A stretch of DNA of 64,000 bases from Nitrospirota bacterium (GCA_024275315.1 JAJRZK010000024.1:1-64000); one strand, 5' to 3'. Shown: positions 27,229-40,484, counted from the stretch's first letter. The notes: generated by a model not told the origin, from the sequence alone. Numbers and translations: made by a program.

Positions 27229-28041
27229 CTAGAAATAAAACGCGGCCATTATGTGGAACAGCGCAACCACAAACAGGGCCGAGGTAAACCCGACATGCCA
27301 TATCAGCCACCGGTTCATCAGCCTCTGGTACGCCTGGCTTCTTCTGATCTCGATTATGTCCATCACCTTTTCAACCATCCACTGGAAAATCTCCCGTTCC
27401 CGGTCGCTGACCACGTCCAGATCGCGGGCGGCGGCGTTCGGGTCCTTTGAGGATTGATCGTACCTGGACAGCAGGGCCTCCTGCTGTTCACTGGTAGGGA
27501 GGGTAATCGACAGGGCCGGAAGGATATGGCGCTGGTACACCCGTTCAAAGGCCGGTGTTCTTCCCTCGAGCTTGCTGGATATTTCACGCAACAGGGCGTT
27601 GACACTGTCCTGCATTTCGTCCTTGTAGACCGGGTCCTGAAGTGTCATTGTCATGGTTTTGGGGACGACACCCTGCACCGCAATTCCCCAAACGCCCGTC
27701 AGCGCGACTCCAAGCGTCAAAAAGCCGGTGGCAAACCCTGCGCCAAGCCCCAGCGACCCGCCTGAATGGAGAAACATCAGCGCAACCGCGGCCAGCCCTG
27801 TCCACACATGGGCTATCTTCCAGTATATAAGCTGGCCGGGGGCCTGCAACAGCTCCCTTTTCCGGAGGCTGTACATCACAGACGTCACCACCATCACCAG
27901 CGTGACCCATCCGAACGCAGGTTTTACAATCGACACAGAGAACGACGCGGCCGGCCCAAACGGGGCGGTGGCCATCGTGGCAAAAGCGATCACCATGCAG
28001 ACCGCCGACGAGGCGAGCAGCAACCTGGCGTCTTTTGTCAT
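27229..28041 (-). CDS. Membrane cytochrome b-like protein
   Basis: Integral membrane protein of 270 aa with about five hydrophobic segments (6-26, 38-58, 74-93, 101-123, 246-268) and a soluble loop of about 120 residues between the last two. Four histidines fall as two pairs spaced 14 residues: His78/His92 in one helix and His249/His263 in another. This is the pattern of bis-heme b ligation in quinone-linked cytochromes. I start it at the ATG overlapping the upstream stop (ATGA). It probably links the quinone pool to the Fe-S and multiheme subunits encoded just upstream. No family is recognised with certainty. Confidence 0.75.
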   Translation of the reverse strand: MTKDARLLLASSAVCMVIAFATMATAPFGPAASFSVSIVKPAFGWVTLVMVVTSVMYSLRKRELLQAPGQLIYWKIAHVWTGLAAVALMFLHSGGSLGLGAGFATGFLTLGVALTGVWGIAVQGVVPKTMTMTLQDPVYKDEMQDSVNALLREISSKLEGRTPAFERVYQRHILPALSITLPTSEQQEALLSRYDQSSKDPNAAARDLDVVSDREREIFQWMVEKVMDIIEIRRSQAYQRLMNRWLIWHVGFTSALFVVALFHIMAAFYF

Positions 28042-29540
28042 TTCGCCACCCGTCCGTAGGTAGTGAAATACTCCGACGGCTTGACCGATTTTATGGCTCC
28101 GGTGGGGCAGTTGTGCTGGCATCCGAGGTGATCGAAATCCATGCAGAGGTCGCATTTGACCGCCCGTTGCCTGACGGCTTTTTTGCCGCCTGCGGCCACG
28201 CGGTCGTCCGCGGCCACGTGGTCGCCCGCGGTCACTCGACCGCCACCAATCCATGACCGTACCCTGTCGGTCATTCGCAGTCCGGCGCCGTCTGTTTGCC
28301 TGTCCACTATGCTTATATTCCCGAAGGGGCATCTTCGCGCGCAGTTTCCGCATCCGATGCACTCGTCCGTATGATAGACCTCGCCATGGGTGTTGCGCTT
28401 GATGGCGCCGGTCGGGCATCCGATCATGCATGTAGGTTCGCGGCAGTGCCGGCAGGACGTGGGGATGAGAATGTTCCTGTACCGGACGCCGTTATGCGTG
28501 ATCCTTGTAACTCCCTGATGGAGCTTGGCGCACGTGACGATGCAGTTCAGGCATCGAACGCACTGGTTGAGGTCCAGTATCAAAACGGCGTCCGCGGTTA
28601 AAATATCATGGCTGGCGACCCATTTGAGCATATCCTGCTCGGTTTCGCTCTGGATTTTCGTCGAGTCTGTGTATCGCTCCGCGGCGATAGCCTTCAGGCC
28701 GGAGGCGACCTCCGGATACGCCAGAAGTATCTTGTTGAACTCCCGCTTCCCTATCTTCACAAGCTCGACCCTGGTCAGCGCCCGGGCGGTGGCGGACCTT
28801 CGCCGGTTGCCGAACAAGGAGCGTTCTCCAAAATAGAAACCTCTGCCCAGATAGGCCAGGATAAACTCTTCTTTCTTTTTCGCCTTCGACGGGCTGATGT
28901 ACGCCTTGTCGAACCGGGAATCGAAAAACCGGCTCTCGTCCTTGTCCGCCGCTCTGGATATCTGCACAAAACCGTCCCGGATAAGATAAAAGGCGTCCGC
29001 GTCGTCACCTTCGGAGAAAATGACATCCCCCTTGGCGCGCACCTCGAGCTTCACCTGTTTGGCGATGGCTTTCATGGTGGGGCCCTCTATCCCGGAAAGA
29101 ACGTCGACGGATTTAAGCGAGCCGAGCAGGGCCCTCTCGCGGTAGCGCTCGTCCAGCCTCTCCTTGACGGCCGGAGTGGAGTCTATGAGCTTTAAAAAAC
29201 CCTCCCTGCCGATCCGGAGCAACCTGGCTTCCCGCACACACCTGACCTCCGCCAACCGGGGGTTGCCAGACAGTATCGACATCTCCCCCAAAAGCTCACC
29301 GGGTCCCAGACTCCGGACCTGCCTCTTCTTCCCCGTCTCCTTGTCGGTGACCAGCACTTCGAAAGCTCCCTTGAGCACGATATAGCATATCTGCTCATAC
29401 TCACCCTCCTCGATGATAACCTCCCCGGCCGGGATATGGACCAGGTCGGCCTCCTGGACAAGGGTCTCTATAGCTTCCTTGGACGCCCCTGCAAAAAAGG
29501 GGCTCTTGGCGATCAGCTCCACCAGGCTGGCAAACTCCAT
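28038..29540 (-). CDS. Dual cyclic-nucleotide-binding domain, four-cluster ferredoxin fusion
   Basis: Protein of 500 aa. Two cNMP-binding (CRP-type) beta-barrels span about 5-130 and 145-290, with phosphate-cassette-like segments GELLGEMSILSGNPRLAEV and FGERSLFGNRRRSATARA. After about 325 there are four cysteine quartets: CVRCLNCIVTC, CRHCREPTCMIGC, CIGCGNCARRC and CDLCMDFDHLGCQHNC, fitting four [4Fe-4S] clusters as in DmsB/HycB-type electron-transfer subunits. The fusion suggests electron transfer gated by a nucleotide second messenger. The ATG shares one base with the stop of the cytochrome c gene. An 18-bp minisatellite lies between clusters 3 and 4. Confidence 0.85.
   Translation of the reverse strand: MEFASLVELIAKSPFFAGASKEAIETLVQEADLVHIPAGEVIIEEGEYEQICYIVLKGAFEVLVTDKETGKKRQVRSLGPGELLGEMSILSGNPRLAEVRCVREARLLRIGREGFLKLIDSTPAVKERLDERYRERALLGSLKSVDVLSGIEGPTMKAIAKQVKLEVRAKGDVIFSEGDDADAFYLIRDGFVQISRAADKDESRFFDSRFDKAYISPSKAKKKEEFILAYLGRGFYFGERSLFGNRRRSATARALTRVELVKIGKREFNKILLAYPEVASGLKAIAAERYTDSTKIQSETEQDMLKWVASHDILTADAVLILDLNQCVRCLNCIVTCAKLHQGVTRITHNGVRYRNILIPTSCRHCREPTCMIGCPTGAIKRNTHGEVYHTDECIGCGNCARRCPFGNISIVDRQTDGAGLRMTDRVRSWIGGGRVTAGDHVAADDRVAAGGKKAVRQRAVKCDLCMDFDHLGCQHNCPTGAIKSVKPSEYFTTYGRVAK
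28185..28235. repeat. 18-bp minisatellite inside ferredoxin coding sequence
   Basis: About 2.7 in-frame copies of an 18-bp unit encode V-T/A-A-G/D-D-H/R, between the third and fourth Fe-S cysteine groups. Unit length is a multiple of three, so copy-number change would alter linker length without frameshift. Confidence 0.75.
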
Positions 29541-30868
29541 CAACCTTCCGCTCCCTTTTGCGTAATCGATCCCGTCGCGGGTTCGTTCATATCTCTGCCA
29601 CTCTCCATTTTGCCATCATCGATCAGGCGCGGCGACCTCAGGGCGTACTCCAGCCCCGGCGGCTCCGTAGTGGGGGCGATTGTGAAATTCGACTTTACAA
29701 CCTCCGGGTCGTACAGGCTCTGCAACGAAAACGCCAGCCCATGGCAACGGACGCAGACATAAACCGCCATCCGCTCCTTGGTGGACACCAACCACGACTC
29801 GTTATGCTCGGTCACTCCGCCATTCCCCTCCAGCCGGGGCATGTGACATCCGGCGCAATCGACGCCTGTCATCGGTTTGTATAAAAACACCGGGTCGGAC
29901 AGATACCTGTAGTGGCCCGACTTACCGTAGTTGCGCACATGGGCGCTCTGACCATGGCACAGCTCGCACGCTTTCATCCTCGCGTCCTGCGTCCCGAGGC
30001 TGTGAACGTCATGGCAACCACCGCACCCCACCTGGCTTCCAGGGTCCGAAAAGGGCTCTAGCCCCTGCAGATCGTGGACACCGTGACGGCCGGCCCCATA
30101 CCCCCTGGTCTGGATAGGGTGGCATTCCTGGCAGACTTTTGCGCCCGGCCGCATGTTGACGCCGCCACCGCGCGCGTCCGCCCCGGCTTTTCCCTTGTGG
30201 CACCTGTCGCATGTGGCCTGCGTGCCGTAGTGCCGGCTGATCTGGTATTGGGCCATGATGACAGGGTTGCTCCTGTAAAAGGGGGTGCGACGCATCTTGT
30301 TTATGCCGGCCGATCCTATACCGATATGCTCGACCTTTGCGGGGGGTGCGACCACTTTCGACCTCGGCAAAATCATCCTCCTGTCGGCGCGGGCGAAGTC
30401 GTCGGCCCCGATGTTGAAATGGTATGTGTGGCATGACGGGGTCGAGCAGGATTCCAGATCGAACCTGGCGTGACCCTCGTTGAGGCGCCTCTTCGGGTGG
30501 CACATGACGCAAAGACCCGGCGGACCGGTATATCCCGACCTGGCCTCGACGGACCGGTGCTCCCTGTGGCAGGTCACGCACGAAAGAGAGGTCAACCGCT
30601 CCGGCACTTCGGCCTTGACGGGGTTGACCATCCTCGCGGCGCCATGGGTGTCGACGCCGATAAATTTTTCATGACACGAAAGACATTTCCGGTCGTCCAC
30701 ACCGCTCCATTTCTCATGGCACGCGAAACAACCGTCGGCGAACCGCTTGTGGCCATCGAACATCGGACCGGGCCTGAACATGGACATTTTCGCGCCGGTT
30801 ATCGCCGACACCATGACCGCGGTTATGATAATCGTCGTCAACGTGATCAGAGCCGTGTGTTTTTTCAT
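29540..30868 (-). CDS. Undecaheme c-type cytochrome
   Basis: Membrane-anchored or secreted multiheme cytochrome of 442 aa. An N-terminal hydrophobic segment (about 7-25) acts as signal or anchor to the periplasmic side. I count ten CXXCH heme-binding motifs (CFACH, CLSCH, CVTCH, CVMCH, CDRCH, CQECH, CGGCH, CELCH, CAGCH, CVRCH) plus one wider CX4CH (CSTPSCH), so eleven hemes. Several extra histidines (HREHRS, HDVHSLG) can be distal ligands. It is the first gene of a three-gene overlapping redox operon and presumably passes electrons to or from the Fe-S/cytochrome b pair. The electron partner outside the operon is unknown. Confidence 0.9.
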   Translation of the reverse strand: MKKHTALITLTTIIITAVMVSAITGAKMSMFRPGPMFDGHKRFADGCFACHEKWSGVDDRKCLSCHEKFIGVDTHGAARMVNPVKAEVPERLTSLSCVTCHREHRSVEARSGYTGPPGLCVMCHPKRRLNEGHARFDLESCSTPSCHTYHFNIGADDFARADRRMILPRSKVVAPPAKVEHIGIGSAGINKMRRTPFYRSNPVIMAQYQISRHYGTQATCDRCHKGKAGADARGGGVNMRPGAKVCQECHPIQTRGYGAGRHGVHDLQGLEPFSDPGSQVGCGGCHDVHSLGTQDARMKACELCHGQSAHVRNYGKSGHYRYLSDPVFLYKPMTGVDCAGCHMPRLEGNGGVTEHNESWLVSTKERMAVYVCVRCHGLAFSLQSLYDPEVVKSNFTIAPTTEPPGLEYALRSPRLIDDGKMESGRDMNEPATGSITQKGAEG

Positions 30869-30974
30869 CCCGCTATTATGACATTAAAACCGGCGCGTTT
30901 GACGGGTGATTATCGCGAATTTACCCGGGCGCAACCGTTACCGCGCCATTGTCTGCCATTCCCCCCGGACCCGT

Positions 30975-30994
30975 CCCGCCCTTTCCGGGGCGGG
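30975..30994. promoter_or_regulatory. GC-rich hairpin in the divergent control region
   Basis: CCCGCCC (30975-30981) and GGGCGGG (30988-30994) form a perfect 7-bp stem with a 6-nt loop. It lies in the 5' region of the cytochrome c operon. It could act on mRNA leader structure; there is no T-tract in either direction. Confidence 0.35.
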
Positions 30995-31000
30995 GCGATG

Positions 31001-31021
31001 TTATGTAGTATTACTTCATAA
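31001..31021. promoter_or_regulatory. Operator-like 21-bp dyad (RpiR/HexR-like)
   Basis: A 21-bp near-perfect inverted repeat with one mismatched pair, in the gap between the divergent cytochrome and rpiR-BMC operons. Its core TGTAGTATTACTTCA (31004-31018) fits 14 of 15 positions of TGTARTWWWAYTACA, the consensus I recall for HexR, an RpiR-family regulator. It lies 24 bp upstream of the rpiR -35 box. It is the obvious candidate for autoregulation of the BMC operon and may also affect the cytochrome operon. Confidence 0.5.
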
Positions 31022-31044
31022 ATATTAAAATAATGTAAAAAAAC

Positions 31045-31073
31045 TTGATATATCCTCTTAGCCGGTGTACAAT
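31045..31073 (+). promoter_or_regulatory. Sigma-70-type promoter of the rpiR-BMC operon
   Basis: TTGATA (31045-31050), a 17-bp spacer and TACAAT (31068-31073): each hexamer matches five of six consensus bases. Transcription would start near 31080. This excludes the GTG at 31065 as a start codon and supports the ATG at 31098. Confidence 0.65.
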
Positions 31074-31097
31074 GCAGGACAAAACACGGGATCGACC

Positions 31098-32012
31098 ATG
31101 CAATTGACAGGTAATACATCCATGAGTGTCCGGGGCGGATCAAAGCGGCGCAAGCAGGCTCCGGCCCTGTCCGGGGCGGGGGCCAGGATCAGGGGGATCA
31201 TGCCGTCTCTCCTGCCGGCGGAACGCAAGGTGGCCGAATACGTGGTCGCAAGCCCCGAATCGATAATCGGGGAGTCGATAGGCGAGGTGGCGGCGCATTC
31301 GGGCGTGTCGGAAGCCACCATCATAAGGTTTTGCCGGACCGCGGGATTCAGAGGGTTTCAGGATCTGAAAATCAGCCTGGCCAGGCTTCTGGTCAGCCCC
31401 CTGGCGTCGGCCCTGCACGAGGATGTGACCGCCAGGGACGACATGGCCACTGTCGCCCGCAAGGTGTTCGCCGCGAACATCGACTCTCTCAACGATACGC
31501 TGGCGCTTGTCGACCCGGACATGGTGTCCGCCGCCGTGCAGATCGTATCCGGCGCCGGCAAACTGCTTGTAATAGGTGTGGGCACCTCCGCCCCTGTGGC
31601 TTTTGACGCCTACGCGAAATTGATGCGGCTGGGTGTTGCGGCCACTTTGCAGACAGATTCGCATCTTCAGATGATGGAGGCGGCCCTGCTGGGGAAGGGT
31701 GACGCGATACTCGCCATCAGCCATTCCGGATCCACCATGGACCCTGTCGAAACCGTCAAGGTCGGCAAATCGGCCGGGGCGAAGGCTGTCTGCATAACGT
31801 GCAACTCGCTTTCTCCCCTGGCGAAGATATCAGACGTGACACTGCTCACCGCCAGCCGCGAGACCAGGTTCCGCTCCTAGGCGCTGGCGTCGAGGATCGC
31901 GCAGGCCAGCGTGATCGACCTGCTTTATGTGGCTATCGGCCTGAAAGAGAAAAAGCGCGCCCTGGCCAGCGCAAAAAGGATAGAGGACGTTATAACCTCG
32001 AAACAGTATTGA
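31098..32012 (+). pseudogene. RpiR-family SIS transcriptional regulator interrupted by in-frame TAG
   Basis: Read through the stop, this frame gives 304 residues, the normal size for RpiR regulators. It has an N-terminal helix-turn-helix (AAHSGVSEATIIRFCRTAGFRG) and a C-terminal SIS sugar-phosphate sensor (VIGVGTSAPVAFDAY, AISHSGSTMDPVETV). Codon 261 is TAG (31878-31880) in ETRFRS*ALASRIAQ, where relatives usually have Glu (GAG), so one base change explains it. Frame and family likeness continue to the TGA at 32010. Options are a sequencing error, a recent mutation leaving a protein without its last SIS helices, or UAG read-through. It is first in the BMC operon, so it probably regulates the shell genes in response to a phosphosugar. 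Confidence 0.85.
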
Positions 32013-32068
32013 ACATGGCGGACGCCGTAACAGGGTCTTAAGCCAGACCGGATTATATAGGAGAGACA

Positions 32069-32698
32069 ATGATTTCATTACGCACATACATATTGCTGGA
32101 CAGTTTGCAGGAGCAACTGGCTTCGTATATCGGATCGACCGCCAAGGGGTTTTTGCCGGTGCCGGGGGTGGCGTCCCTGTTCGTGGAGATAGCGCCGGGC
32201 CTTGCGATCAACCGTGTCACCGACGCCGCGCTCAAGGCGACCCGGGTCCAGCCCGCCATACAGATAGTGGAGAGAGCTTTCGGGTTGCTGGAGGTTCACG
32301 ACCATGACAAGGGAGAGGTCATGAGCGCAGGAGAGGCGATCCTCGATTTTCTCGATCTTACGGAGGGGGAGCGGATCAGGCCGAACCTCGTGTCGAACCA
32401 GATCATCCGGTCGATGGAGGCGTACCAGTGCCAGCTGATCAACCGCAACAGGAGCGGGTCGATGATACTTCCCGGCGAGTCGCTTTTCATACTGGAGACC
32501 GAGCCGGCGGGGTACGCCGTGTACGCCGCTAACGAGGCGGAAAAGGCAGCCCGGGTGAAGCTGGTCGATGTGAGGCCGTTCGGAGCATTCGGCCGGCTTT
32601 ACATGTCGGGCCCTGAATCGGAGGTGGATTCCGCCGCCAAGGCCGCGGTATCGGCTATCGAAGGTGTTACCGGCGTCGAAAATGTAAGGAAAAAATAG
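32069..32698 (+). CDS. BMC-T trimeric shell protein (tandem BMC domains)
   Basis: Shell protein of 209 aa with two fused BMC domains. The first spans about 40-105 ([22 protein letters not shown] … [10 protein letters not shown]), the second about 135-205 ([31 protein letters not shown] … [10 protein letters not shown]). BMC-T trimers form pseudohexagonal tiles with a larger, sometimes gated pore for cofactors or bulky substrates. It has a strong AGGAGAG ribosome-binding site and starts 56 bp after the regulator frame. A preceding segment of about 35 residues is not part of the BMC fold. Confidence 0.85.
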
Positions 32699-32727
32699 TC
32701 ATTTATTTTAAACAGGAGATATCAAAA

Positions 32728-33021
32728 ATGTCCGAAGCTTTGGGTTTGATCGAAACAAAGGGGTTCGTCGGGATGGTGGAAGCCTCCGACGCCATGGTCA
32801 AGGCCGCCAAGGTAGAGCTGGTGGGATACGAAAAAATCGGCGGCGGTTATGTGACCTCGATCGTCCGCGGCGACGTGGCCGCGGTGAAAGCGGCTACCGA
32901 CGCAGGTTCGCGCGCGGCCGAAAAGGTGGGGGAGCTGGTGTCGGTGCACGTGATACCGCGTCCGCACAGCAACATTGACAAGGCGCTCCCGCTGGGCAGG
33001 GGCGACGCGGTCGAGGGGTAG
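32728..33021 (+). CDS. BMC-H hexameric shell protein (PduA/EutM/CcmK type)
   Basis: Canonical shell protein of 97 aa. It begins [20 protein letters not shown], and the pore loop is KIGGG in [17 protein letters not shown]. Hexamers tile the shell faces and pass small polar substrates. AGGAGAT lies 8 nt before the ATG. The adjoining P-type gene starts 3 bp downstream. No unusual extension is present; it is the standard facet tile of this compartment. Confidence 0.96.
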
Positions 33022-33024
33022 GCC

Positions 33025-33339
33025 GTGTTGATCGGCAAGATCGTGGGGACGGTGGTTTCCACGCACAAGACGGAGTCGCTTGAGGGGCTCAAGCTCTATG
33101 TCGTGAAAAACATAGGCGCCGACGGCAAAGACGCCAGCGGATATGTCGTCGCGGCCGATTCGGTGGGGTCGGGCGTGGGGGAGGTCGTCTTGTACGCCAC
33201 CGGATCATCCGCCCGCCAGACCAGCGTGACTGACAATCGCCCTGTAGACGCGATTATTATGGGCGTCATCGACACCTGGGACATCGAGGGCGATACCATC
33301 TACACCAAGGATGAATCGGCGGAAACCGCGGATGAATAA
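33025..33339 (+). CDS. BMC-P pentameric vertex protein (EutN/CcmL type)
   Basis: Vertex protein of 104 aa that closes the compartment. It opens with MLIGKIVGTVVSTHKTESLEGLKLYVV, the EutN/CcmL signature, and continues through ADSVGSGVGEVVLYATGSSAR. The start is GTG with a G-rich ribosome-binding region overlapping the BMC-H stop. Having T, H and P types in order gives the minimal set for a closed shell. Confidence 0.95.
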   Translation: MLIGKIVGTVVSTHKTESLEGLKLYVVKNIGADGKDASGYVVAADSVGSGVGEVVLYATGSSARQTSVTDNRPVDAIIMGVIDTWDIEGDTIYTKDESAETADE

Positions 33340-33363
33340 ACAAATTGCAAGTGAGTTTTAGCG

Positions 33364-33856
33364 ATGAAATTTGAGACGGACCAGATAGCCGAAATTGTGG
33401 CCAGGGTGGTCGCTCGTATCGACGCCGGCCACAACCCGCCTTCCCGTCAAACCCCCGATCGCCCGGCTCCCTCCTTCGTGGAGAGGCCGGCCGGCCAGAC
33501 CGGGATATACGGCTCTGTCGGTGAGGCGGTGGCCGCGGCCAGGGTGTCGTTTGAGAGCCTGGGCGAAGCGTCCCTTGAAAAGCGGGGTGAGATTATAGAA
33601 TCCATGCGGGCCGCCGCCCGGGAAGAGGCCCGGACGCAGGCGGAGCTTACGGTGGAGGAGACCCGGCTCGGAAGGGTGGAGGACAAATATCTGAAGAACA
33701 TGCTTGCGGCGGACAAGACCCCCGGCGTGGAGATTCTAAGGCCGGTCTGTTACACGGGTGACAACGGGATGGCGCTGGTGGAACGCGCTCCGTACGGAGT
33801 GATAGGGTCCATAACTCCCTGCACCAACCCGGCGGCCACCGTTGTCTCCAACTCTA
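33364..33856 (+). CDS. BMC-associated CoA-acylating aldehyde dehydrogenase, N-terminal part (PduP/EutE-like), cut at the axis
   Basis: Only the first 164 residues are genuine. After the axis the frame reads its own antisense up to 33963. Residues 1-20 form an amphipathic helix (MKFETDQIAEIVARVVARID) followed by a Pro/Gly-rich linker, as in the encapsulation peptides that target cargo into BMCs. The body (YGSVGEAVAAARVSFESL … ERAPYGVIGSITPCTNPAATVVSNS) is the N-terminal NAD(P)/CoA-binding part of PduP/EutE-type enzymes, which turn a compartment aldehyde into acyl-CoA. Full-length relatives have about 460-490 residues. This cargo identifies an aldehyde-processing metabolosome; the signature enzyme is not in the window. 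Confidence 0.88.
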
Positions 33857-33872
33857 TAGAGTTGGAGACAAC
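33841..33872. other. Symmetry axis / fold-back junction
   Basis: The dyad axis lies inside the self-complementary core CTCTATAGAG, between 33856 and 33857. Left of the axis the sequence is ordinary aldehyde dehydrogenase coding sequence (…NPAATVVSNS). Right of it the frame reads the antisense of the same gene until a stop ending at 33963. A short native palindrome such as CTATAG could have primed a fold-back during amplification or library preparation, but the native downstream sequence is not visible here. Confidence 0.9.
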
Positions 33873-36844: not shown

Positions 36845-38173
36845 ATGAAAAAACACACGGCTCTGATCACGTTGACGACGATTATCATAACCGCGGTCAT
36901 GGTGTCGGCGATAACCGGCGCGAAAATGTCCATGTTCAGGCCCGGTCCGATGTTCGATGGCCACAAGCGGTTCGCCGACGGTTGTTTCGCGTGCCATGAG
37001 AAATGGAGCGGTGTGGACGACCGGAAATGTCTTTCGTGTCATGAAAAATTTATCGGCGTCGACACCCATGGCGCCGCGAGGATGGTCAACCCCGTCAAGG
37101 CCGAAGTGCCGGAGCGGTTGACCTCTCTTTCGTGCGTGACCTGCCACAGGGAGCACCGGTCCGTCGAGGCCAGGTCGGGATATACCGGTCCGCCGGGTCT
37201 TTGCGTCATGTGCCACCCGAAGAGGCGCCTCAACGAGGGTCACGCCAGGTTCGATCTGGAATCCTGCTCGACCCCGTCATGCCACACATACCATTTCAAC
37301 ATCGGGGCCGACGACTTCGCCCGCGCCGACAGGAGGATGATTTTGCCGAGGTCGAAAGTGGTCGCACCCCCCGCAAAGGTCGAGCATATCGGTATAGGAT
37401 CGGCCGGCATAAACAAGATGCGTCGCACCCCCTTTTACAGGAGCAACCCTGTCATCATGGCCCAATACCAGATCAGCCGGCACTACGGCACGCAGGCCAC
37501 ATGCGACAGGTGCCACAAGGGAAAAGCCGGGGCGGACGCGCGCGGTGGCGGCGTCAACATGCGGCCGGGCGCAAAAGTCTGCCAGGAATGCCACCCTATC
37601 CAGACCAGGGGGTATGGGGCCGGCCGTCACGGTGTCCACGATCTGCAGGGGCTAGAGCCCTTTTCGGACCCTGGAAGCCAGGTGGGGTGCGGTGGTTGCC
37701 ATGACGTTCACAGCCTCGGGACGCAGGACGCGAGGATGAAAGCGTGCGAGCTGTGCCATGGTCAGAGCGCCCATGTGCGCAACTACGGTAAGTCGGGCCA
37801 CTACAGGTATCTGTCCGACCCGGTGTTTTTATACAAACCGATGACAGGCGTCGATTGCGCCGGATGTCACATGCCCCGGCTGGAGGGGAATGGCGGAGTG
37901 ACCGAGCATAACGAGTCGTGGTTGGTGTCCACCAAGGAGCGGATGGCGGTTTATGTCTGCGTCCGTTGCCATGGGCTGGCGTTTTCGTTGCAGAGCCTGT
38001 ACGACCCGGAGGTTGTAAAGTCGAATTTCACAATCGCCCCCACTACGGAGCCGCCGGGGCTGGAGTACGCCCTGAGGTCGCCGCGCCTGATCGATGATGG
38101 CAAAATGGAGAGTGGCAGAGATATGAACGAACCCGCGACGGGATCGATTACGCAAAAGGGAGCGGAAGGTTGA
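36845..38173 (+). CDS. Undecaheme c-type cytochrome (mirror copy)
   Basis: Identical 442-aa periplasmic cytochrome with ten CXXCH sites and one CX4CH. First gene of the redox operon on this arm. The stop overlaps the next ATG by one base. Confidence 0.9.
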   Translation: MKKHTALITLTTIIITAVMVSAITGAKMSMFRPGPMFDGHKRFADGCFACHEKWSGVDDRKCLSCHEKFIGVDTHGAARMVNPVKAEVPERLTSLSCVTCHREHRSVEARSGYTGPPGLCVMCHPKRRLNEGHARFDLESCSTPSCHTYHFNIGADDFARADRRMILPRSKVVAPPAKVEHIGIGSAGINKMRRTPFYRSNPVIMAQYQISRHYGTQATCDRCHKGKAGADARGGGVNMRPGAKVCQECHPIQTRGYGAGRHGVHDLQGLEPFSDPGSQVGCGGCHDVHSLGTQDARMKACELCHGQSAHVRNYGKSGHYRYLSDPVFLYKPMTGVDCAGCHMPRLEGNGGVTEHNESWLVSTKERMAVYVCVRCHGLAFSLQSLYDPEVVKSNFTIAPTTEPPGLEYALRSPRLIDDGKMESGRDMNEPATGSITQKGAEG

Positions 38174-39675
38174 TGGAGTTTGCCAGCCTGGTGGAGCTGA
38201 TCGCCAAGAGCCCCTTTTTTGCAGGGGCGTCCAAGGAAGCTATAGAGACCCTTGTCCAGGAGGCCGACCTGGTCCATATCCCGGCCGGGGAGGTTATCAT
38301 CGAGGAGGGTGAGTATGAGCAGATATGCTATATCGTGCTCAAGGGAGCTTTCGAAGTGCTGGTCACCGACAAGGAGACGGGGAAGAAGAGGCAGGTCCGG
38401 AGTCTGGGACCCGGTGAGCTTTTGGGGGAGATGTCGATACTGTCTGGCAACCCCCGGTTGGCGGAGGTCAGGTGTGTGCGGGAAGCCAGGTTGCTCCGGA
38501 TCGGCAGGGAGGGTTTTTTAAAGCTCATAGACTCCACTCCGGCCGTCAAGGAGAGGCTGGACGAGCGCTACCGCGAGAGGGCCCTGCTCGGCTCGCTTAA
38601 ATCCGTCGACGTTCTTTCCGGGATAGAGGGCCCCACCATGAAAGCCATCGCCAAACAGGTGAAGCTCGAGGTGCGCGCCAAGGGGGATGTCATTTTCTCC
38701 GAAGGTGACGACGCGGACGCCTTTTATCTTATCCGGGACGGTTTTGTGCAGATATCCAGAGCGGCGGACAAGGACGAGAGCCGGTTTTTCGATTCCCGGT
38801 TCGACAAGGCGTACATCAGCCCGTCGAAGGCGAAAAAGAAAGAAGAGTTTATCCTGGCCTATCTGGGCAGAGGTTTCTATTTTGGAGAACGCTCCTTGTT
38901 CGGCAACCGGCGAAGGTCCGCCACCGCCCGGGCGCTGACCAGGGTCGAGCTTGTGAAGATAGGGAAGCGGGAGTTCAACAAGATACTTCTGGCGTATCCG
39001 GAGGTCGCCTCCGGCCTGAAGGCTATCGCCGCGGAGCGATACACAGACTCGACGAAAATCCAGAGCGAAACCGAGCAGGATATGCTCAAATGGGTCGCCA
39101 GCCATGATATTTTAACCGCGGACGCCGTTTTGATACTGGACCTCAACCAGTGCGTTCGATGCCTGAACTGCATCGTCACGTGCGCCAAGCTCCATCAGGG
39201 AGTTACAAGGATCACGCATAACGGCGTCCGGTACAGGAACATTCTCATCCCCACGTCCTGCCGGCACTGCCGCGAACCTACATGCATGATCGGATGCCCG
39301 ACCGGCGCCATCAAGCGCAACACCCATGGCGAGGTCTATCATACGGACGAGTGCATCGGATGCGGAAACTGCGCGCGAAGATGCCCCTTCGGGAATATAA
39401 GCATAGTGGACAGGCAAACAGACGGCGCCGGACTGCGAATGACCGACAGGGTACGGTCATGGATTGGTGGCGGTCGAGTGACCGCGGGCGACCACGTGGC
39501 CGCGGACGACCGCGTGGCCGCAGGCGGCAAAAAAGCCGTCAGGCAACGGGCGGTCAAATGCGACCTCTGCATGGATTTCGATCACCTCGGATGCCAGCAC
39601 AACTGCCCCACCGGAGCCATAAAATCGGTCAAGCCGTCGGAGTATTTCACTACCTACGGACGGGTGGCGAAATGA
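38173..39675 (+). CDS. cNMP-binding/four-cluster ferredoxin fusion (mirror copy)
   Basis: Identical 500-aa protein with two cNMP-binding domains and sixteen cluster cysteines. The 18-bp minisatellite lies at 39478-39528. Confidence 0.85.
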   Translation: MEFASLVELIAKSPFFAGASKEAIETLVQEADLVHIPAGEVIIEEGEYEQICYIVLKGAFEVLVTDKETGKKRQVRSLGPGELLGEMSILSGNPRLAEVRCVREARLLRIGREGFLKLIDSTPAVKERLDERYRERALLGSLKSVDVLSGIEGPTMKAIAKQVKLEVRAKGDVIFSEGDDADAFYLIRDGFVQISRAADKDESRFFDSRFDKAYISPSKAKKKEEFILAYLGRGFYFGERSLFGNRRRSATARALTRVELVKIGKREFNKILLAYPEVASGLKAIAAERYTDSTKIQSETEQDMLKWVASHDILTADAVLILDLNQCVRCLNCIVTCAKLHQGVTRITHNGVRYRNILIPTSCRHCREPTCMIGCPTGAIKRNTHGEVYHTDECIGCGNCARRCPFGNISIVDRQTDGAGLRMTDRVRSWIGGGRVTAGDHVAADDRVAAGGKKAVRQRAVKCDLCMDFDHLGCQHNCPTGAIKSVKPSEYFTTYGRVAK

Positions 39676-40484
39676 CAAAAGACGCCAGGTTGCTGCTCGC
39701 CTCGTCGGCGGTCTGCATGGTGATCGCTTTTGCCACGATGGCCACCGCCCCGTTTGGGCCGGCCGCGTCGTTCTCTGTGTCGATTGTAAAACCTGCGTTC
39801 GGATGGGTCACGCTGGTGATGGTGGTGACGTCTGTGATGTACAGCCTCCGGAAAAGGGAGCTGTTGCAGGCCCCCGGCCAGCTTATATACTGGAAGATAG
39901 CCCATGTGTGGACAGGGCTGGCCGCGGTTGCGCTGATGTTTCTCCATTCAGGCGGGTCGCTGGGGCTTGGCGCAGGGTTTGCCACCGGCTTTTTGACGCT
40001 TGGAGTCGCGCTGACGGGCGTTTGGGGAATTGCGGTGCAGGGTGTCGTCCCCAAAACCATGACAATGACACTTCAGGACCCGGTCTACAAGGACGAAATG
40101 CAGGACAGTGTCAACGCCCTGTTGCGTGAAATATCCAGCAAGCTCGAGGGAAGAACACCGGCCTTTGAACGGGTGTACCAGCGCCATATCCTTCCGGCCC
40201 TGTCGATTACCCTCCCTACCAGTGAACAGCAGGAGGCCCTGCTGTCCAGGTACGATCAATCCTCAAAGGACCCGAACGCCGCCGCCCGCGATCTGGACGT
40301 GGTCAGCGACCGGGAACGGGAGATTTTCCAGTGGATGGTTGAAAAGGTGATGGACATAATCGAGATCAGAAGAAGCCAGGCGTACCAGAGGCTGATGAAC
40401 CGGTGGCTGATATGGCATGTCGGGTTTACCTCGGCCCTGTTTGTGGTTGCGCTGTTCCACATAATGGCCGCGTTTTATTTCTAG
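39672..40484 (+). CDS. Membrane cytochrome b-like protein (mirror copy)
   Basis: Identical 270-aa membrane protein with the two 14-spaced histidine pairs. The start overlaps the ferredoxin stop as ATGA. A frame extending upstream to 39282 only shadows the ferredoxin gene. Confidence 0.75.
   Translation: MTKDARLLLASSAVCMVIAFATMATAPFGPAASFSVSIVKPAFGWVTLVMVVTSVMYSLRKRELLQAPGQLIYWKIAHVWTGLAAVALMFLHSGGSLGLGAGFATGFLTLGVALTGVWGIAVQGVVPKTMTMTLQDPVYKDEMQDSVNALLREISSKLEGRTPAFERVYQRHILPALSITLPTSEQQEALLSRYDQSSKDPNAAARDLDVVSDREREIFQWMVEKVMDIIEIRRSQAYQRLMNRWLIWHVGFTSALFVVALFHIMAAFYF

Follow-up and report, generated by a model that had tools for sequence, protein, structure and literature searches.

The window analysed here is a 64,000-nucleotide stretch of DNA from a Nitrospirota bacterium (GCA_024275315.1, JAJRZK010000024.1:1-64000). 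Its minus strand carries three overlapping genes at 27229-30868, a trio that encodes a multihaem cytochrome c, a subunit joining cyclic-nucleotide-binding (CNB) domains to iron-sulfur (Fe-S) clusters, and a membrane cytochrome b. The cytochrome c (29540-30868, 442 residues) has one N-terminal hydrophobic segment, is predicted to be periplasmic and contains ten CXXCH motifs and one CX4CH motif, which gives 11 haems. Its stop codon overlaps the start of the CNB-Fe-S gene by 1 bp (TGATG, position 29540). The CNB-Fe-S subunit (28038-29540, 500 residues) has neither an N-terminal signal nor a clear transmembrane segment and is predicted to be cytoplasmic. Its stop codon in turn overlaps the cytochrome b start by 4 bp (ATGA, 28038-28041). 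The cytochrome b (27229-28041, 270 residues) has five predicted transmembrane helices and two histidine pairs, His78/His92 and His249/His263, each spaced H-x13-H. The initial annotation of this DNA had described three genes overlapping by 1 and 4 bp and encoding an 11-haem cytochrome c, a four-cluster subunit fused to two CNB domains, and a bis-haem b membrane subunit. Our analysis bears out the overlaps, the haem count and the fusion, and the predicted helices and invariant histidine pairs are those expected of a bis-haem protein.

The CNB-Fe-S protein contains two PF00027 domains (E 8e-42; 141.5 bits against a cut-off of 27.5). CNB-1 spans residues 34-121 (29178-29441) and CNB-2 approximately residues 160-278 (28707-29063, outer limits approximate). 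The Gly-Glu of the phosphate-binding cassette is invariant in both domains (G85/E86 and G238/E239, 46/46 aligned proteins). The phosphate-binding Arg is kept in 45/46 proteins for R95 of CNB-1 and in 44/46 for R248 of CNB-2. In the window protein, R248 is followed by S249 and A250, and R95 by L96, where Ser or Thr is usual. The initial annotation had named degenerate nucleotide pockets in all homologues as an outcome that would refute its reading. Conservation across the 46 members leads us to reject such degeneracy, save for the atypical CNB-1 residue, which recurs in one group of proteins (type 1, below). In a structure model of the subunit (mean predicted local distance difference test score, pLDDT, 81; predicted template modelling score, pTM, 0.64), the modelled CNB pair resembles PKA and PKG structures with tandem CNB domains (Foldseek E ~1e-21). 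The fold matches include trypanosomatid PKA regulatory subunits (6hyq, 6flo) that are described as cAMP-independent, with a nucleoside as ligand. The pocket residues, together with cyclase and phosphodiesterase genes that neighbour relatives of the trio (below), suggest that the trio may bind a cyclic nucleotide.

C-terminal to the CNB pair lie Fer4 domains with 16 cysteines in four sets of four (C327-C478; 28107-28562), from which four [4Fe-4S] clusters are predicted. All 16 are invariant in the 46 aligned proteins, and the region fits the pattern of a DmsB/HydN-like electron-transfer subunit with four [4Fe-4S] clusters. In the cytochrome b, Trp74, His78, His92, Gly116, Gly119, Pro127, Trp245, His249 and His263 are invariant across 37 sequences. 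Judging by its positive charges, the protein has His78/His249 facing the cytoplasm; with the H-x13-H pairs, this predicts two haem sites, one inner and one outer. Neither a sequence search nor a Foldseek search with the cytochrome b model (pLDDT 84) gave a significant PDB match, and the window protein has no Pfam match, PF01794 included. Comparison by hhalign with NarI-type (PF02665) and hydrogenase-type (PF01292) sets, the latter containing one wrong-frame row, gave probabilities of ~1% or below, and we therefore do not assign the protein to the NarI or Ni-hydrogenase cytochromes b. The Ferric_reduct model (PF01794) scores a distant cousin at 20 bits against a cut-off of 28, and hhalign against a ferric-reductase-type profile of only 4 sequences found nothing.

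We examined how often these genes occur together. Among 24 Nitrospinota genomes, 15 encode a CNB-Fe-S homologue (E<=1e-30). Two gene orders recur: type 1, that of the window, runs 11-haem cytochrome c, CNB-Fe-S, cytochrome b; type 2, which is more widespread, runs CNB-Fe-S, cytochrome b and a cytochrome c with ~8-10 haems. The 11-haem cytochrome c has full-length matches in all 8 genomes with a type-1 CNB-Fe-S gene and in no others; in the remaining 16, any matches were short and weak. In one of the 8 (G014), the cytochrome c gene sits on a separate contig. A scan of GTDB genomes yielded at least 529 confirmed CNB-Fe-S relatives, and locus counts cover the best 80 of these, which include Nitrospinota, Acidobacteriota, Pseudomonadota, Planctomycetota, Nitrospirota and Binatota. 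Cytochrome b directly adjoins CNB-Fe-S in 68/80 loci, a gene with at least 5 haem motifs lies nearby in 76/80, and both are present in 66/80. The initial annotation had proposed a search for the conserved trio in other genomes, and it is found both in related Nitrospinota and in other phyla. Because the order recurs in related genomes, including one assembled in 4 contigs (G013), and in these other phyla, the gene order of the trio is not due to chance.

Several variants of the locus were observed. A proteobacterial form (L111, L096, L098, L079) comprises an LVIVD-repeat multihaem protein, a cytochrome c554-like protein and a CNB-Fe-S protein fused to a thioredoxin-reductase (TrxR) domain, with no cytochrome b detected. 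At L099:7334-8908 and similar loci, an N-terminal FHA domain precedes the haem region of the proteobacterial multihaem c. The window's genome also carries a type-2 paralogue (L036:5321-8343, contig C56) consisting of CNB-Fe-S, cytochrome b and an 8-haem cytochrome c. One in-frame TAG falls at a Ser position in its CNB-2; we rejected recoding and read it as a mutation or sequence error. A CNB-free cousin in the same genome (L123:401-2767, contig C42) has a cytochrome b with the same histidine signature directly before a [4Fe-4S]/Pyr_redox protein, with Etf-like genes downstream. A one-sequence profile search places this cytochrome b in the trio's family (E 9e-26).

Relatives of the trio carry several kinds of electron-input module. 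CNB-Fe-S proteins of Proteobacteria and Nitrospirota have a fused N-terminal thioredoxin-reductase/YpdA-like domain, and those of Acidobacteriota have an N-terminal NuoG/HoxU-like domain, with a NuoE-NuoF fusion encoded by the upstream gene. The multihaem protein of Binatota/delta loci has a C-terminal Pyr_redox domain, and a second hydrophobic segment is counted there. A glutamate-synthase-like protein lies upstream at three Nitrospinota loci. Such swapping among modules that each deal with NAD(P)H or flavin electrons is an argument for electron exchange between the conserved core and the pyridine nucleotides of the cytoplasm.

Enzymes of cyclic nucleotide metabolism also neighbour some relatives. 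Class III cyclases lie in or beside the operon at five loci (L070, L082, L099, L102 and L108). A Sphingobium plasmid operon runs CNB-Fe-S, cytochrome b and a 10-haem cytochrome c, all three annotated as hypothetical, followed by a gene annotated cpdA. The accessions of this Sphingobium trio are BDX74041-BDX74043. The window's own genome has 7 cyclase-domain matches. These data suggest that the cyclase and phosphodiesterase genes point to the ligand, and the NAD(P)H/flavin modules to the direction of electron flow.

We favour, with modest confidence, the reading that the trio is a transmembrane electron conduit, regulated by a cyclic nucleotide monophosphate (cNMP), that leads from cytoplasmic NAD(P)H/flavin to a periplasmic multihaem cytochrome. 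In its favour count the gene overlaps, the conserved partners and ligand residues, and the flavin modules and cyclase or phosphodiesterase genes of relatives. The initial annotation had inferred a complex and direct control of respiratory electron flow by a second messenger, a view that is supported in part. The three proteins would form a membrane complex that moves electrons between the cytoplasm and the periplasmic multihaem cytochrome c, and its activity would depend on a cyclic nucleotide, cAMP being the likeliest. The cytoplasmic donor, NAD(P)H or some other, would pass electrons to a flavin module, which is fused or encoded in the operon in relatives and in the window organism would be supplied by another protein. 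From the flavin they would run through the four [4Fe-4S] clusters to the inner b haem (His78/His249), then to the outer b haem (His92/His263), the 11-haem cytochrome c and further periplasmic acceptors. Ligand bound to the tandem CNB domains, which lie N-terminal to the Fe-S domain on the same chain, would open or close either the cluster-to-haem or the flavin-to-cluster step.

Several observations weigh against this conduit reading. No flavin or pyridine-nucleotide module is fused to the window proteins or encoded in the window operon, so that, if the reading is right, the partner must be encoded elsewhere. Of the best 80 loci, 12 lack a detected adjacent cytochrome b. In one of these, L064, the gene is present as an overlapping frame call, and several others are on contigs that end early; in most of the remainder, two other multihaem genes lie immediately upstream, and L079, L096 and L111 have ample flank and truly lack a cytochrome b. 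In 6/7 type-1 proteins, Leu, Phe or His takes the place of the usual Ser or Thr behind the CNB-1 Arg, and one site may therefore not bind cNMP. The product of the Sphingobium gene annotated cpdA matches cyclic-nucleotide phosphodiesterase models below both NCBIfam cut-offs. Finally, cyclases occur in 23/24 Nitrospinota genomes whether the trio is present or absent; they are therefore not specific evidence, and we rejected cyclase presence as a specific marker of the trio.

The same bulky CNB-1 residues would fit a different explanation, in which the CNB domains serve as scaffolds or bind another ligand, such as a nucleoside, and the complex works as a constitutive oxidoreductase of ordinary type. 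The nucleoside-bound, cAMP-independent tandem CNB proteins among the fold matches are also consistent with this. However, the Glu is invariant and the Arg nearly so in both domains and across several phyla, which is unexpected if cNMP binding had been lost, and a predicted phosphodiesterase and cyclases are encoded within operons. We consider this explanation unlikely. Much the same low probability attaches to a role as a redox sensor, in which the state of the cytochrome, b haems or Fe-S clusters would alter the affinity for cNMP or its release, so that the CNB domains buffer or report cAMP and do not gate electron flow. Such a sensor would account for CNB and Fe-S domains sharing one chain and for the cyclase or phosphodiesterase genes that adjoin some relatives; in addition, one Nitrospinota relative (L049) adjoins HD-domain signalling genes, one of them with its own CNB pair. 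However, the fused NuoG-like and TrxR-like domains and the NuoEF gene resemble a catalytic input, which a sensor would not need, and four clusters with 10-13 haems are better suited to a conduit.

Alternatively, the trio could be a respiratory module linked to quinol, like those known in anaerobes (Ohc/Nhc/Qrc/Cbc-like), with a quinol and not NAD(P)H as donor or acceptor. In the Ohc, Nhc, Hmc, Qrc and Cbc complexes of sulfate and iron reducers, a multihaem c in the periplasm is combined with an Fe-S subunit and with either a membrane cytochrome b or an integral subunit, and the trio's general part list is similar; a quinol link would also suit a window operon that has no flavin gene. However, the corresponding NCBIfam models score far below their cut-offs (QrcA 15.2 bits against 180, HmcB 29 against 420, DsrO 38 against 200), the first of which also leads us to reject membership of the Qrc menaquinone reductases. 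The cytochrome b shows no PDB match by sequence and no profile similarity to the NarI or hydrogenase types, and relatives carry NAD(P)H modules. We therefore regard a quinol-linked module as very improbable. To our knowledge, none of the Ohc, Nhc, Hmc, Qrc and Cbc complexes has CNB domains.

The contig itself has an unusual structure that bears on how the trio is counted. The 64-kb window is a perfect inverted repeat, in which each position p pairs with 67713-p (100% over 30,144 pairs), and the full 67,712-base contig is its own reverse complement. The repeat is centred at 33856/33857, where a gene for a microcompartment aldehyde dehydrogenase contains the 16-bp palindrome CAACTCTATAGAGTTG. 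C26, a different contig from this genome, is identical to the window over its first 139 bp, up to the centre, and then diverges towards a PduS-like gene. Because of the palindrome and this different continuation past the centre, we read the mirror half as an assembly fold-back. The plus-strand copy of the trio at 36845-40484 is thus artefactual, and we count the trio once. An assembly artefact as the explanation of the trio itself was rejected, since the same order is found in other genomes, including the 4-contig G013.

In relatives the trio occupies the same site, upstream of gyrA, a TPR-type gene and serS. The window copy is flanked by gyrA on one side and a microcompartment regulator on the other. 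There, a divergent RpiR-type regulator and a microcompartment shell/aldehyde dehydrogenase operon (31065-33857) adjoin the trio across an intergenic region (30869-31064). This arrangement and linkage are retained in L038 and L041/L119, but not in L117. We did not adopt a functional tie to the microcompartment operon: the linkage was observed only in families f1 and f4, and shell genes occur in 20/24 genomes with or without the trio, which counts against such a tie.

The proposed path has likenesses to several characterised systems. Like NADPH oxidases and ferric reductases (FRD), the trio would carry electrons from NAD(P)H/flavin through two stacked His-pair b haems and out of the cytoplasm. 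It differs from them by adding Fe-S clusters, multihaem c and CNB domains, and a sequence relation is unsupported by the sub-threshold score and thin FRD set described above. Modules like the NuoE/NuoF/NuoG input of complex I, HoxFU and the NADH input of A6 FeFe-hydrogenases occur in the Acidobacteriota loci, the window copy having none; no hydrogenase or quinone-reductase core was seen, and the output is cytochrome b and multihaem c instead. With PKA/PKG regulatory subunits, CRP and SthK the trio shares the tandem CNB fold and an intact phosphate-binding cassette. In those proteins the effector is a kinase partner, a DNA-binding domain or a channel, whereas in the trio it is a four-cluster Fe-S domain. 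The known cNMP effectors of bacteria work chiefly through transcription, channels or protein modification, and we know of no characterised example of such a CNB fusion to an electron-transfer subunit.

For none of the three proteins did an NCBIfam model among the matches listed reach its cut-off, and no characterised complex matching the trio was found in the PDB, NCBIfam or open-access full texts, a search that left subscription papers largely outside. This agrees with the initial annotation, which had not recognised the trio as a standard named complex. The parts are known individually, and the combination appears to be undescribed. More tentatively than the conduit reading for the trio itself, we propose that these loci represent a widespread, undescribed class of transmembrane oxidoreductases, in which cAMP (or cGMP) bound to the electron-transfer subunit itself may, without transcription, turn on or shut off the export of NAD(P)H electrons to multihaem cytochromes of the periplasm. 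The family defines a cytochrome b that has no Pfam name, and since a culturable carrier exists in the Sphingobium plasmids, it is open to experiment. If the proposal is true, a second messenger would tune redox flow directly and fast, across hundreds of genomes.

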